Assembly (NCBI GenBank): GCA_029776205.1
Contig: JAKOTQ010000077.1
Span: 1-45,712, forward strand
Source: Bacillota bacterium
Lineage (GTDB): Bacteria; Bacillota; UBA4882; UBA8346
Direction of reading: 5' to 3'
Length of the DNA: 45,712 nucleotides
Shown here in pieces: positions 19,699-40,072 of this stretch. Every line of letters starts with the position of its first letter. Position 1 is the first letter of the stretch. The notes below the pieces were generated by a model. The model saw only the letters and a list, made by a program, of their open reading frames with translations. It ran no database searches and was not told the DNA's origin. Made by a program: the position numbers and the translations under genes.

Positions 19699-19721
19699 AG
19701 GCTACAAAGTAAATAACTGTA

Positions 19722-19966
19722 AATGCGATGAAGAGGAAGAGTAAACAAGGACTCAGCCGATAGAGAGCCCATGAGGGTGGAAATTGGGCGGTTCGAACTT
19801 GTTGAAGAGGCCTTGGAGCAGTGGCCGAAATCGAAGTAAGCCAACTTTCCCGTTATTGAGGAGGAATCAGGATCGTTTGATTCCAAAAGCGGAGCTATGC
19901 TCAATGTAGGTGGTACCGCGGAAGTTAACCTTTCGTCCTTAGGGATGAAAGGTCTTTATTTTTATA
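19722..19966 (+). promoter_or_regulatory. T-box leader, specifier probably GAG (Glu)
   Basis: tRNA-sensing transcription attenuator. Stem I is recognisable: AAGAGGAAGAGTA, the helix AACAAG (19744-19749) pairing with CTTGTT (19798-19803), and the distal AGAGAGCCCA...GGGTGGAAATTGGGC. Directly after the conserved GAA comes GAG (19807-19809) in the specifier position, followed by GCCTTGGAGC; this reads as Glu. The T-box core TGGTACCGCG is at 19911-19920, with the UGGN position U, predicting an A discriminator base. The terminator pairs ACCTTTCGTCC (19928-19938) with GGATGAAAGGT (19943-19953) and a T-rich tail. Such leaders sense uncharged tRNA and turn on the downstream genes. Specifier assignment is from pairing by eye. 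Confidence 0.85.
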
Positions 19967-19974
19967 GGGAAGAG

Positions 19975-20200
19975 ATGATCATCCGGGTTGCGTTGACCAA
20001 CCGGCGAACGACTCCGGAATTATACCAAATCATACGGATCATAGGGGAGAAACGGGTAAGGTATCGATTGGAGCGGTGTTTGGAGATGCTGAAGTGATTT
20101 TAATTCTTTACTGACTATCGTGGAGGAGTCAACGGATTATCTTCGTGTTGATATGAAAGGGCGTTTGGATGAGATTGGGTTTAAAGGAGGCAAACTCTGA
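19975..20200 (+). pseudogene. Small T-box-controlled ORF with an apparent frameshift
   Basis: From the ATG at 19975 the frame encodes 40 residues (MIIRVALTNRRTTPELYQII...CLEMLK) and stops at 20097. In the +1 frame the sequence continues without interruption as FNSLLTIVEESTDYLRVDM...GRLDEIGFKGGKL and stops at 20200, overlapping the ATG of the LUD gene by one base. The second part has no good start of its own, and the stop/start overlap is typical of a coupled operon gene. The simplest reading is one protein of about 75 residues with a one-base insertion near 20094-20098, or a real frameshift at AAG-TGA-T. I do not recognise the family; it is the first gene behind the T-box. Confidence 0.5.
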
Positions 20201-20841
20201 TGGTTTATGATATGAACCCACAAATGAAAGAACGGATTGAACGGACGATCCGTAACCTTGAAAAACATAATATCCATGGCCTTTTTGTCGCTGATGAAAA
20301 CGAGTTGCGCATGAAGCTCCAGGAATGGATACCTGAAGGGTCAACCGTAGCCGTGGGGGACTCCATGACATTATCTGAAACGGGAATCATTGAGATGTTG
20401 CGTAACGGGAATTACCATTTTCTCGATAAATACCGGCCTGGAATTACCCGTGCCGAAAAACAGGATATTTACAGGCGTAGCTTTAGTGCTGACACCTTTT
20501 TGTGCAGTACCAATGCACTGACAGAAACAGGTGAACTTTACAATGTGGACGGCAATGGCAGCCGGGTGGCAGCGATGATTTACGGTCCTGATCAGGTGAT
20601 TGTGGTTGCAGGCATCAACAAGATCGTTAAGAATCTGGAAGAAGCGGAAGAGAGGGTTCGTAAGACTGCCGCGCCGCTGGATGCGAAACGGTTGCAGAAG
20701 AAGACGCCCTGTGTTTCATTGGGGTATTGTGTGGATTGTCAAAGCGATGATCGGATTTGCAACGATGTTGTCATCATTAAACGGCAATTCGTTAAAGGAC
20801 GGATCAAAGTGATTATCGTTGGGAAACCCCTAGGTTATTAG
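20200..20841 (+). CDS. LUD domain protein (LutC/YkgG-like)
   Basis: A 213-residue soluble protein of the LUD family, related to the LutC/YkgG subunit of lactate-utilisation complexes. It shows VAVGDSMTLSETGIIEMLR, the segment TFLCSTNALTETGELYNVDGNGSRVAAMIYGP with the family's T/N-rich active pocket, and VIVVAGINKIV. The C-terminal cysteine cluster TPCVSLGYCVDCQSDDRICND is common in stand-alone LUD proteins. AAAGGAGG precedes the ATG, which overlaps the preceding small ORF's stop. No LutA/LutB partners are present, so an isolated role is likely; the T-box suggests expression when an aminoacyl-tRNA, probably Glu, runs low. Confidence 0.85.
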   Translation: MVYDMNPQMKERIERTIRNLEKHNIHGLFVADENELRMKLQEWIPEGSTVAVGDSMTLSETGIIEMLRNGNYHFLDKYRPGITRAEKQDIYRRSFSADTFLCSTNALTETGELYNVDGNGSRVAAMIYGPDQVIVVAGINKIVKNLEEAEERVRKTAAPLDAKRLQKKTPCVSLGYCVDCQSDDRICNDVVIIKRQFVKGRIKVIIVGKPLGY

Positions 20842-20888: not shown

Positions 20889-20918
20889 TTGACAGAAAAG
20901 TTTGTCCTGGTGTATATT
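20889..20918 (+). promoter_or_regulatory. Promoter of the sulfate assimilation operon
   Basis: Perfect TTGACA (20889-20894), an 18-base spacer and TATATT (20913-20918). Transcription should start near 20925, giving a leader of about 150 bases. Confidence 0.85.
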
Positions 20919-20930
20919 GCATATATAAGT

Positions 20931-21035
20931 AAACAAGTAGGAATAATAATAATTTTAAAATAAAGTGAGTCTCCGATTACCTCTATAGGTAACAAGGATA
21001 TTCACTATTTTCTTACATACAATTCCTACTTATTT
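20931..21035 (+). promoter_or_regulatory. Structured leader with inverted GGAAT operator-like motifs
   Basis: The sequence AAACAAGTAGGAAT (20931-20944) returns inverted at 21022-21035 with one change. Between the arms are nested complements: AAAAT-AGTGAGT (20957-20970, two-A bulge) with ATTCACTATTTT (21000-21011), TCC/GGA, and TTACCT/AGGTAA (20977-20982, 20987-20992) closing a CTAT loop. As RNA this makes one long nearly continuous hairpin starting about 6 bases from the transcription start. No U-tract follows, so it is not a terminator. As DNA the two arms resemble CymR/Rrf2-type cysteine-regulator sites (GGAAT core). It matches no riboswitch consensus that I can recall (SAM, FMN, TPP, cobalamin). 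Confidence 0.6.
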
Positions 21036-21073
21036 GATCGAAATACTAAATAATTATTAAGGAGGAATGAAAG

Positions 21074-22090
21074 ATGAAGAGGAAAATCGGTTTACTATTT
21101 GCCCTGATTTTGGTTTTAACGTTGGGTTTGGTTTCGGTGTCTGCTGCTGACCGGCCGATTACGTTACTGAATGTTTCCTATGATCCAACCCGTGAATTGT
21201 ATCAGGATTATAACGCGGCTTTTGTGAAGTACTGGAAAGCCAAAACCGGCCAAACTGTGACCATTCAGCAGTCCCATGGCGGATCGGGAAGTCAGGCCCG
21301 CGCAGTCATTGACGGATTGGAAGCGGATGTAGTGACCTTGGCATTAGCCTACGATATTGATGCCATTGTCGAAAAGGCGAAATTAATCCCGGCCCAATGG
21401 CAAAAACGGTTGCCGGATAACAGTGCGCCTTATACCTCAACCATTGTTTTCTTGGTCCGTAAAGGAAATCCGAAAAACATCAAAGATTGGGACGACTTGG
21501 TTAAACCGGGCATTACGGTGATTACTCCGAACCCTAAAACTTCCGGTGGTGCCCGTTGGAACTATCTGGCTGCTTGGGGATATGCTTTAAAGAAAAACGG
21601 CAATAATCAACAAAAGGCCCAGGAGTTTGTCACCAAGCTCTTTAAGAATGTGCCGGTGCTGGATTCAGGCGCTCGGGGTTCAACCAATACCTTCGTCCAA
21701 CGCGGCATTGGCGATGTGTTGCTCGCTTGGGAAAATGAGGCTTTCCTTGCCCTCAACGAGTTGGGAAAGGATAAATTTGAAATTATTGTTCCGTCGATCA
21801 GTATCTTGGCTGAGCCTCCCGTAACTATCGTCGATAAGGTGGTCGATAAACGAGGAACACGTAAATTGGCTGAAGAGTATCTCAAATATCTTTATTCCAG
21901 GGAAGGTCAAGAAATCGTAGCCCGTAACTATTATCGGCCCCGGTTGAAATCCGTTGCGGAGAAGTATGAAACCCAATTTCCCAAGGTCAAACTTTTCACC
22001 ATCGATGAAGTATTTGGCGGTTGGCAGAAAGCGCAAACCATTCACTTTAACGACGGAGGAATTTTTGACAAGATTTATCAGGCGAAATAA
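21074..22090 (+). CDS. Sulfate/thiosulfate ABC transporter substrate-binding protein
   Basis: Extracytoplasmic sulfate-binding protein (Sbp/CysP family), 338 residues. The signal peptide [20 protein letters not shown] is followed by SVSAAD, a signal peptidase I type site, and there is no lipobox cysteine. The mature protein begins with [19 protein letters not shown] and has [32 protein letters not shown], the oxyanion-binding core, and [19 protein letters not shown]. It is the first gene of the 16-kb operon, with GGAGG eight bases before the ATG. Sulfate rather than thiosulfate or molybdate is inferred from family motifs and the cysDN genes downstream. Confidence 0.95.
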
Positions 22091-37397: not shown

Positions 37398-38198
37398 TCA
37401 GAAAGCTGGTACGATACTGCCTTGGTAGGTTTTGGTGAGATAGGCTTTGACGGTATCGCTGTTAAGTGCTTTGGCCAGCTTAAGCAGAGCTGGGTTGTTT
37501 TTATCCTTGGCGCGGACGGCCAGAACATTGGCGTAAGGCGATTCTTTGCCTTCGATAAATAATGCGTCTCTCACAGGGATCAGATTGATGGTTAAGGCAT
37601 AATTGGTATTGATCACCGCCAGATCGACATCGGCCAGAACCCGCGGAAGCTGAGCGGCTTCAAGGGCTTTAATTTTAAGGCCTTTCGGGTTTTTGGCAAT
37701 ATCCAGTTCGGTAGCAGTCAGGCCTACGCCTTTCCGTAATTCGATCAAGTTCGCTTGTTGAAGGAGAAGCAGAGCCCGCCCTCCGTTGGTGGGGTCGTTG
37801 GGAATTGCGACAGTAGCTTTGTTTTTTAAATCTTTTAAAGATTTGATCTTTTTGGAATAGACGCCCATGGGTTCAATATGGACTTTCGCGATAGAGACCA
37901 AATCCAGTTTCCGGTCTTTGCAGAATTGCTCCAGATATGGGATGTGTTGAAAGAAATTGGCATCTAATTCGCCTTCGGCCAGAGCCAAGTTGGGTTGGAC
38001 ATAATCCTGAAATTCGATGATTTTCAAGGTGATGCCTTCTTTAGCTAGCAGGGGTTTAACGGATTCCAAGATACCCACATGGGGCGTTGGCGATGCGCCG
38101 ACCGTCAATACTGTGTTGGCAGCGCTTACGGTTAGGCTGCTGATGAGCAGGGAGATAAGTAATGCAGTGAGAAGAATCAATGAGAGATTTTTCTTCAT
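37398..38198 (-). CDS. metQ: Methionine ABC transporter substrate-binding protein
   Basis: Binding protein of the methionine importer (NlpA/MetQ family), 266 residues. The mature part has LTVGASPTPHVGILESVKPLLAKEGITLKIIEFQDYVQPNLALAEGELDANFFQHIPYL, the family hallmark, and VAIPNDPTNGGRALLLLQ. The signal peptide ends LLISSLTVSAANT with an AxA-type site and no lipobox Cys, unlike most MetQ of monoderm Firmicutes and unlike potD in this window. GGAGG stands eight bases before the ATG. It is the last gene of metN-metI-metQ; specificity for methionine rests on family and operon. Confidence 0.93.
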   Translation of the reverse strand: MKKNLSLILLTALLISLLISSLTVSAANTVLTVGASPTPHVGILESVKPLLAKEGITLKIIEFQDYVQPNLALAEGELDANFFQHIPYLEQFCKDRKLDLVSIAKVHIEPMGVYSKKIKSLKDLKNKATVAIPNDPTNGGRALLLLQQANLIELRKGVGLTATELDIAKNPKGLKIKALEAAQLPRVLADVDLAVINTNYALTINLIPVRDALFIEGKESPYANVLAVRAKDKNNPALLKLAKALNSDTVKAYLTKTYQGSIVPAF

Positions 38199-38294: not shown

Positions 38295-38951
38295 TTACTT
38301 ATGATTGAGTTTTCGGGCCATCCAGTCGCCCAGTGATTGAATGCCTTGGACCAGGATGACCAGAACAATAACGGTGGCTAACATGACATCGGGTTGGAAA
38401 CGCTGATAGCCGTAACGAATGGCCAAATCTCCCAAACCACCGCCACCAACGGCACCGGCCATGGCTGAATAACTGATGAGGCTGACAGCACAGTTAGTGA
38501 TGCCCAAAACTAGGCCGGACTTAGCTTCCGGAATCAGTACTTTGCCAATAATTTGCCAAGTGGTGGCGCCGATAGCCTGGGCGGCTTCGATAATACCGCT
38601 GTCTACCTCGAGCAGGGTTGTTTCAACCAGTCGGGCAAAAAACGGAATTGCACTGACGGTAAGTGGTACGATTGCTCCCAACGTTCCGATGGAAGTCCCT
38701 ACCACCAGTCGAGTGAAAGGGACGATCGCCACCAACAAGATGATAAAGGGTAAGGAACGCCCGATATTAACGATGATGGAAAGGGTCGAATGAATGGCCG
38801 GGTGAGGCTTGATGTGGCCAGGGCCGGTAATCACCAGCAATACGCCTAGCGGCAAACCGAGCAGAGTGGCAATGACCAAAGAAACACCCACCATGTAAAG
38901 GGTCTCCCATAAACCGTTAATCAGCAGATTGAAGAGTTGTGGATTCCACAC
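38295..38951 (-). CDS. metI: Methionine ABC transporter permease
   Basis: A 218-residue permease with about five membrane segments. It begins MWNPQLFNLLINGLWETLYMVGVSLVIA, typical of MetI, and has the EAA loop IEAAQAIGATTWQIIGKVLIPEAKSG and ISYSAMAGAVGGGGLGDLAIRYGYQRF, a signature of this permease type. The start overlaps metN by 35 bases. The 96 bases to metQ hold that gene's ribosome binding site and nothing else that I can identify. Confidence 0.95.
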   Translation of the reverse strand: MWNPQLFNLLINGLWETLYMVGVSLVIATLLGLPLGVLLVITGPGHIKPHPAIHSTLSIIVNIGRSLPFIILLVAIVPFTRLVVGTSIGTLGAIVPLTVSAIPFFARLVETTLLEVDSGIIEAAQAIGATTWQIIGKVLIPEAKSGLVLGITNCAVSLISYSAMAGAVGGGGLGDLAIRYGYQRFQPDVMLATVIVLVILVQGIQSLGDWMARKLNHK

Positions 38952-39981
38952 CGTTTAACACCTCGATTCGACATCCTAGTTCCTGTAGGTAGGCCATGGC
39001 CGTCTGGACATTGTCGTCTGTTCCGTTGAGGTCGACGATGAGTGATCCAAAGGGCGTATCCTGTATAAAGTCGAGTTTAGCATATAAAATATTGACATCC
39101 AAATTAAAACGGCGGATCAACGAAGTAATCACCGGTTCTTTAGCGGCTTCGCCCTGAAAGAAGATGCGTACCAGGTTTCCTTCGCCGGGATTGGAATGAA
39201 TTAATGTTTGTAGATTTTCCGGGATTTTATCATGAGTAGCCGTCCGGATGAACTCCCGGGCGATTTCCGTCCGGGGATTGGCAAACAATTGAACGACGGG
39301 CCCACATTCGATGATCTGGCCGTTTTTAATGACAGCCACTGAATCGCAGATTTCTTTAATAACCTGAATTTCGTGGGTGATCAAAATAATGGTCAAACCC
39401 AGCCGTCGATTGACATCCCGCAATAGTTGAAGAATCGAATGGGTGGTCTGGGGGTCCAGGGCTGAGGTGGCTTCGTCGCACAGTAAAATTTCGGGATGAT
39501 TGGCTAAAGCCCGGGCAATGCCGACTCGTTGTTTTTGGCCGCCGGAGAGCTGTGCCGGATAATTGTTTAATTTATCGGAAAGGCCGACCAACTCGGCTAA
39601 TTCCAATACCCGTTTTTTGATCTCTGCCGGAGGTGTTCCGGCAACTTCCAACGGAAAAGCGATATTTCCGTAAACGGTACGGGAAGAAAGCAAATTGAAA
39701 TGCTGAAAGATCATGCCGATTTTCCGGCGGGCCAGGCGGAGATTTTTACCGGTTAAAGTGGTCATCTCCGTATCTCCAACGATAATGCTTCCGGACTGGG
39801 GGATTTCCAGACGGTTAATGCTGCGTAGTAATGTACTTTTGCCGGCTCCGCTGAGGCCGATAATTCCGAAGATTTCGCCCCGTTTTATTTCAAGGTTAAT
39901 ATTGCGGAGGGCGGTAACCGTTTGATCCTTGGAACGGTATGTTTTGGTTACATTGTGAAATTTAACAATAGCCGTACCCAC
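38917..39981 (-). CDS. metN: Methionine ABC transporter ATP-binding protein with NIL domain
   Basis: ATPase of the importer, 354 residues. Walker A GLSGAGKS (42-49), signature LSGGQKQR, Walker B LLCDEATSALDPQTT (with Asp-Glu-Ala as usual in MetN) and LTIILITHEIQV. The last 80 residues (GNLVRIFFQGEAAKEPVITSLIRRFNLDVNI...) are the NIL domain, which binds methionine and inhibits transport in known MetN. It is the first gene of the operon, preceded by GAAAGGAAGGTG. A promoter and a GGAAT-type operator-like site lie upstream. Confidence 0.95.
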   Translation of the reverse strand: MGTAIVKFHNVTKTYRSKDQTVTALRNINLEIKRGEIFGIIGLSGAGKSTLLRSINRLEIPQSGSIIVGDTEMTTLTGKNLRLARRKIGMIFQHFNLLSSRTVYGNIAFPLEVAGTPPAEIKKRVLELAELVGLSDKLNNYPAQLSGGQKQRVGIARALANHPEILLCDEATSALDPQTTHSILQLLRDVNRRLGLTIILITHEIQVIKEICDSVAVIKNGQIIECGPVVQLFANPRTEIAREFIRTATHDKIPENLQTLIHSNPGEGNLVRIFFQGEAAKEPVITSLIRRFNLDVNILYAKLDFIQDTPFGSLIVDLNGTDDNVQTAMAYLQELGCRIEVLNGVESTTLQSAD

Positions 39982-40039
39982 AGGCGGTCACCTTCCTTTC
40001 GTAAGTATGATATATGATATAAAACAAAAACAATACCAA

Positions 40040-40056
40040 CTAATTATATTGGAATA
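40040..40056 (+). promoter_or_regulatory. CymR/Rrf2-like operator motif upstream of metNIQ
   Basis: CTAATTATATTGGAATA agrees closely with the published CymR box form TAAATWWNATNGGAATT. It lies about 10-25 bases downstream of the expected metN transcription start, the same geometry as the GGAAT motif in the sulfate operon leader. A second TATATTGG copy is at about 40085-40092 between the -35 and -10. Confidence 0.45.
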
Positions 40057-40072
40057 ATCGGATTTAATATGA

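Follow-up and report, generated by a model that had tools for sequence, protein, structure and literature searches.

Paired CymR-type operator boxes as the probable origin of a riboswitch-like stem in a sulfate operon leader

Two operator boxes of the CymR/Rrf2 type probably make up the outer arms of a nested hairpin in the leader of a sulfate-assimilation operon, with a genus-specific hairpin between them to which we would assign a role in mRNA stability or spacing. We read the arms as a pair of DNA sites for a CymR-type cysteine repressor in preference to a new riboswitch, and judged from its sequence the leader appears ordinary in kind, combining paired operators of a known type with a hairpin particular to one genus. 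In this little-studied class of bacteria, a CymR-type cysteine repressor acting through paired boxes would thereby probably control a large operon for sulfate assimilation and siroheme, and the conserved inner hairpin would be a small candidate RNA element.

The leader lies in a window of 45,712 nucleotides, the whole stretch of Bacillota DNA analysed, and its features are collected in Table 1. The original prediction had placed it at the 5' end of an 18-gene transcript, which is plausible given the sulfate ABC transporter, sulfate activation and reduction, and siroheme genes of the operon. The promoter, in a block conserved in the sister species G001, puts the predicted RNA start near 20925, with the hairpin stem beginning at about +11 and arm 1 spanning about +11 to +20. 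Farther upstream, a T-box leader (100.8 bits, 19719-19943) precedes a LUD-domain gene (20200-20841) that stops 48 bp short of the sulfate promoter; at the same place in G001, the T-box survives as a degraded remnant and the LUD gene is shortened.

Table 1. Positions of the leader elements and related sites in the window.
Feature	Coordinates	Strand	Basis
Promoter TTGACA-18-TATATT	20889..20918	+	consensus scan, 11/12 matches; consensus match only
Predicted operator box 1, CymR/Rrf2 type; core AGTAAACAAGTAGGAATA at 20928-20945	20922..20945	+	matrix rank, conservation
Outer arm 1, AAGTAGGAAT	20935-20944		predicted fold
Outer arm 2, ATTCCTACTT	21022-21031		predicted fold
Helix AAAAT/ATTTT	20957-20961 / 21007-21011		predicted fold
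Inner hairpin AGTGAGT-C-TCC-GA-TTACCT-CTAT-AGGTAA-CAA-GGA-T-ATTCACT	20964..21006	+	genus-specific conserved stem-loop
Helix AGTGAGT/ATTCACT	20964-20970 / 21000-21006		predicted fold
Helix TCC/GGA	20972-20974 / 20996-20998		predicted fold
Helix TTACCT/AGGTAA	20977-20982 / 20987-20992		predicted fold
Predicted operator box 2, near-perfect 23-bp dyad ATTCC-N13-GAAAT	21022..21044		matrix on both strands; dyad
Ribosome-binding region of first gene, AAGGAGGAAT	21059..21068	+	9/10 complementary to arm 2
Sulfate ABC transporter substrate-binding protein, first gene of operon	21074..22090	+	NF008022, 578 bits
Further predicted box, ATACC-N13-GGAAT	40033..40055		rank 2 of window (40037, 23.9 bits); exact dyad match

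A hairpin of more than 25 pairs had been proposed for this leader, and we recovered it in place with its outer arms and all four inner helices. It contains 31 pairs at -27.2 kcal/mol (z = -5.78, with no shuffle equally stable; z = -5.24 for its 97-nt core). The description of an almost continuous stem did not hold, as the stem is interrupted between its outer arms and inner part by a 12 x 10-nt internal loop. The AAAAT/ATTTT helix is absent from G001, and with the ribosome-binding site in the folded segment the predicted ensemble gives the outer arms a pairing probability of only 0.04-0.06 here and 0 in G001. The inner hairpin is the sole part that is stable across all fold calculations. The leader has no terminator, and an Rfam search of it returned no credible match (S-box, T-box or others) at the gathering threshold or at E up to 10, in agreement with the original statement that it resembled no known riboswitch.

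We then compared the arms with operator models trained on other sites. With a 28-bp matrix built from 13 sites in sulfate-transporter leaders of other genomes only, box 1 ranked first among the 91,370 window positions (28.5 bits) and box 2 ranked third (16.5 bits, plus strand) and fourth (14.0 bits, minus strand); a second matrix, from five other sites of the same genome, gave the identical top four sites of the window. Arm 1 is the right half of box 1, which lies over the predicted transcription start. The box 1 core has its only exact genome-wide match here, and since its left half is poor the dyad test for this box rests on the right half and core. Arm 2 is the left half of box 2 (ATTCC-TACTTATTTGATC-GAAAT), which has the 23-bp layout of a CymR-type operator with ATWCC-N13-GGWAT-like halves and departs from a perfect ATTCC-N13-GGAAT dyad by a single mismatch. 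The right half of box 2 falls outside the hairpin, so RNA pairing offers no explanation for it, and in G001 the box reads ATTCC-TACTTTTAAGATT-GGTTT with unchanged spacing. The earlier suggestion of paired operator arms thus gained strong support from the matrix ranks (1, 3 and 4), from the occurrence of the motif at sulfur promoters, and from a box 2 dyad that continues beyond the hairpin.

Box 1 is kept in G001, G005, G006, G008 and other Firmicutes. Counterparts of arm 1 follow the promoter of the same gene in genomes of the same family (AGTAAATTGATAGGAATACTTGG in G005, AGTAAATTGGTAGGAATACATGG in G006 and TTAAATTTATAGGAATACTT in G008), and counterparts of box 1 occur farther off in Paenibacillus (ACTAAACAGGTAGGAATAATG) and Acetivibrio (ACTAAACTGGTATGAATACTT) leaders. 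G005 and G006 retain box 1 after the promoter with neither arm 2 nor the fold. The original prediction had held that homologous leaders keeping both outer arms and losing the inner pairing would indicate DNA operators rather than an RNA fold; G005 and G006 agree with this insofar as operator 1 is retained and the inner pairing gone, but arm 2 is missing there too, and G001 retains the inner hairpin.

Elsewhere in the genome, the promoters of rrf2-metY, nifS and a sulfonate-type ABC operon are each followed immediately by the motif, with a pair of boxes spaced 75 bp in the last case, and cysK also has it upstream. The second-ranked site of the window lies upstream of a methionine-type ABC transporter on the minus strand (MetQ-type protein 37398-38198, NIL-domain ATPase 38917-39981). 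With the sulfate operon itself, the sites are therefore found at sulfur and cysteine promoters, as for a CymR-type operator. Genome-wide counts are not specific by themselves, either for motif sites with two mismatches (12 versus 11 in the control) or for the dyad pattern alone (17 versus 11), so the evidence lies in the position and quality of the best sites, that is, in which promoters carry them. Spacing between paired boxes varies (64, 65, 68, 73, 75 and 100 bp), and we therefore claim no fixed helical phasing. Several overlapping box matches fill 40033-40072, between the methionine-type ABC transporter and a pantothenate-metabolism flavoprotein gene.

Two Rrf2 proteins are encoded in the genome; both have CymR as their best match in NCBIfam, at scores below the family cut-off (132 and 151 versus 195 bits), and are related to the solved CymR structures 2y75 and 3t8r. 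Their C-termini, PMFYI and PMYYI, both end in Tyr-Ile. The C-terminus of CymR, which has a penultimate Tyr, has been modelled as the anchor into CysK (PMC11487621), and the shared ending is no more than suggestive of CysK-mediated control by cysteine or OAS. The two paralogues are encoded on contig C73 of the source genome (G000), at L028:2410-2859 (+) and L027:1721-2161 (-). Only the former carries a set of three cysteines, C-X9-C-X5-C, which makes an iron-sulfur cluster or role conceivable for that protein; it may be a CymR/IscR hybrid.

Like the CymR operators of B. subtilis and other Firmicutes, the boxes here accompany sulfur and cysteine genes and share the ATWCC-N13-GGAA layout of the B. 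subtilis cysK site, which contains ATACC-N13-GGAAA (PMC11487621), and the CymR-like proteins with the Tyr-Ile end adjoin cysK and metY genes. They differ in the consensus of the right half and flank (AGTAAAnnRRTAGGAATA), which is unlike the B. subtilis site, and in the presence of two predicted boxes that are spaced 100 bp and enclose a hairpin. The B. subtilis cysK site scores only -7.2 bits under our asymmetric matrix, and the CymR identity consequently rests on dyad layout, regulon and proteins. CymR and IscR motifs are alike in Clostridium (PMC3828012), and the box upstream of nifS and the protein with three cysteines also recall IscR-type Rrf2 systems; most sites here, however, stand at sulfur uptake and cysteine or methionine genes, not at iron-sulfur assembly genes.

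In the mechanism we propose, a CymR-like repressor, probably together with CysK, would bind the boxes when cysteine is plentiful and turn the sulfate-assimilation operon off. The predicted box over the transcription start would hinder initiation, and the other, centred 100 bp further on, might cooperate with it as a second contact or act as a roadblock. The apparent outer stem would be the right half of box 1 facing the left half of box 2, complementary since the boxes are dyads, and any leader with a pair of them will contain complementary arms without any RNA function. Paired dyad operators in a single leader can therefore mimic a riboswitch stem, and caution is warranted in reading such folds. 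The inner hairpin is not needed for this operator model.

That hairpin (-17.1 kcal/mol; z = -4.0 for the region between the arms, both here and in G001) is probably kept as a structure, judging from the two sequences compared. Its AGTGAGT/ATTCACT and TCC/GGA helices are unchanged in G001 and thus uninformative about selection on pairing. The terminal helix has changed at several places in G001 with pairing retained and one G-C pair gained; with two sequences, double-sided substitutions are uncountable, although the changes preserve pairing. Random edits in similar number reached the stability of the G001 hairpin in 0.4-0.6% of trials (p about 0.005) and that of the hairpin here in 3-4%. The original prediction had looked to a covariance search of related genomes for support of an RNA; a model built from G000 and G001 matched no further member among 29 genomes of the class and only the source genome in a 398-genome sample of the phylum, and searching the class for the operon's first gene yielded no leaders outside the family. 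Conservation across lineages with covarying stems, as expected of a riboswitch aptamer, was accordingly not found, G000 and G001 being the only genomes to match the model. We consider the hairpin a candidate RNA element of one genus, most likely stabilising or spacing the 5' end of a long mRNA, and for this part of the leader the original reading as a stability element is plausible. A short GTG-started frame inside it (GTG AGT CTC CGA ...) was rejected, as it has no ribosome-binding site.

Selection might instead have acted on the whole nested hairpin because it stabilises the 5' end of a very long mRNA, with arm 2 kept for RNA pairing and box 1 as the sole operator, an alternative we regard as unlikely. 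Stabilising hairpins at the 5' ends of long mRNAs exist, such as the Bacillus ermC and aprE leaders, which resemble this one in having a stable stem near the 5' end and no terminator and differ from it in that the internal-loop sequence here is conserved between two species. The position and stability of the stem, which begins about 11 nt from a 5' end that is itself predicted, are compatible with such a role, as is the retention of the inner pairing in G001. Arm 2, however, resembles the operator on both strands and, in each of the two species, forms a dyad with a partner beyond the hairpin, and folds that include the ribosome-binding site scarcely pair the arms. At the same place, G008 (z -2.6) and three Acetivibrio-like leaders (z -3.6 to -5.0) do carry nested hairpins, unrelated in sequence, which lie between paired boxes or over them, whereas G005 and G006 lack the fold, and G002, most Paenibacillus leaders and the sulfonate-type operon of the same genome show no excess structure.

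Arm 2 can also pair with the ribosome-binding region of the first gene, as it does when the full leader of either species is folded; when the leader is forced into one state or the other, the energies differ by 2.7 kcal/mol here and by about 5 kcal/mol in G001. Shuffled blocks paired equally well with the ribosome-binding site in 121 and 269 of 2000 cases (6-13%; p about 0.06-0.13), so we count this pairing as weak evidence. Were the operator halves reused as RNA, with arm 1 and the ribosome-binding site competing for arm 2 and the inner hairpin acting as sensor, one sequence would be both a repressor operator and part of a translational switch, and the unrelated nested hairpins of G008 and the Acetivibrio-like genomes would be parallel solutions; we find such dual use improbable. 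Least probable is a genus-specific translational riboswitch or sensor, in which the inner hairpin would sense a sulfur metabolite and arm 1 would displace the ribosome-binding site from arm 2 and expose it: the 9/10 complementarity to AAGGAGGAAT, the energy difference between the forced states, and the identity in both species of the inner internal-loop sequence and of a 24-nt block (21008-21031) speak for it, but shuffles pair as well, arm 2 is a perfect fit to the operator but an imperfect one to the ribosome-binding site, and the hairpin is small for an aptamer and has no homologue outside the genus in the class and phylum samples.

S-box and T-box leaders are likewise structured leaders of Firmicutes sulfur-metabolism operons; the sulfate leader differs in having no Rfam match to either and no terminator or antiterminator. 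The ligand-binding element first envisaged drew no positive support, being confined to one genus, without Rfam match or terminator, and with a ribosome-site pairing not clearly beyond chance.

Leaders of other genomes yielded further observations. In the Acetivibrio-like leaders L040, L041 and L045, two boxes 65-68 bp apart flank a hairpin; two of the three carry AGTGTG/CACACT and the third AGTATG/CATACT, a possible compensatory change, and the best predicted fold of L045 does not contain this helix. Paenibacillus and relatives (L091, L102, L103, L105, L109 and L096, at about 2700-2800) share a strongly conserved CGACCGGACGAACCGGAG just past the operator, an element of sulfate-transporter leaders without an Rfam match, and in L096 a terminator-like hairpin and its T-run follow further downstream. 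In G005 (L006), a perfect ATTCC-N13-GGAAT dyad between the substrate-binding-protein gene and cysT suggests an extra box ahead of cysT.
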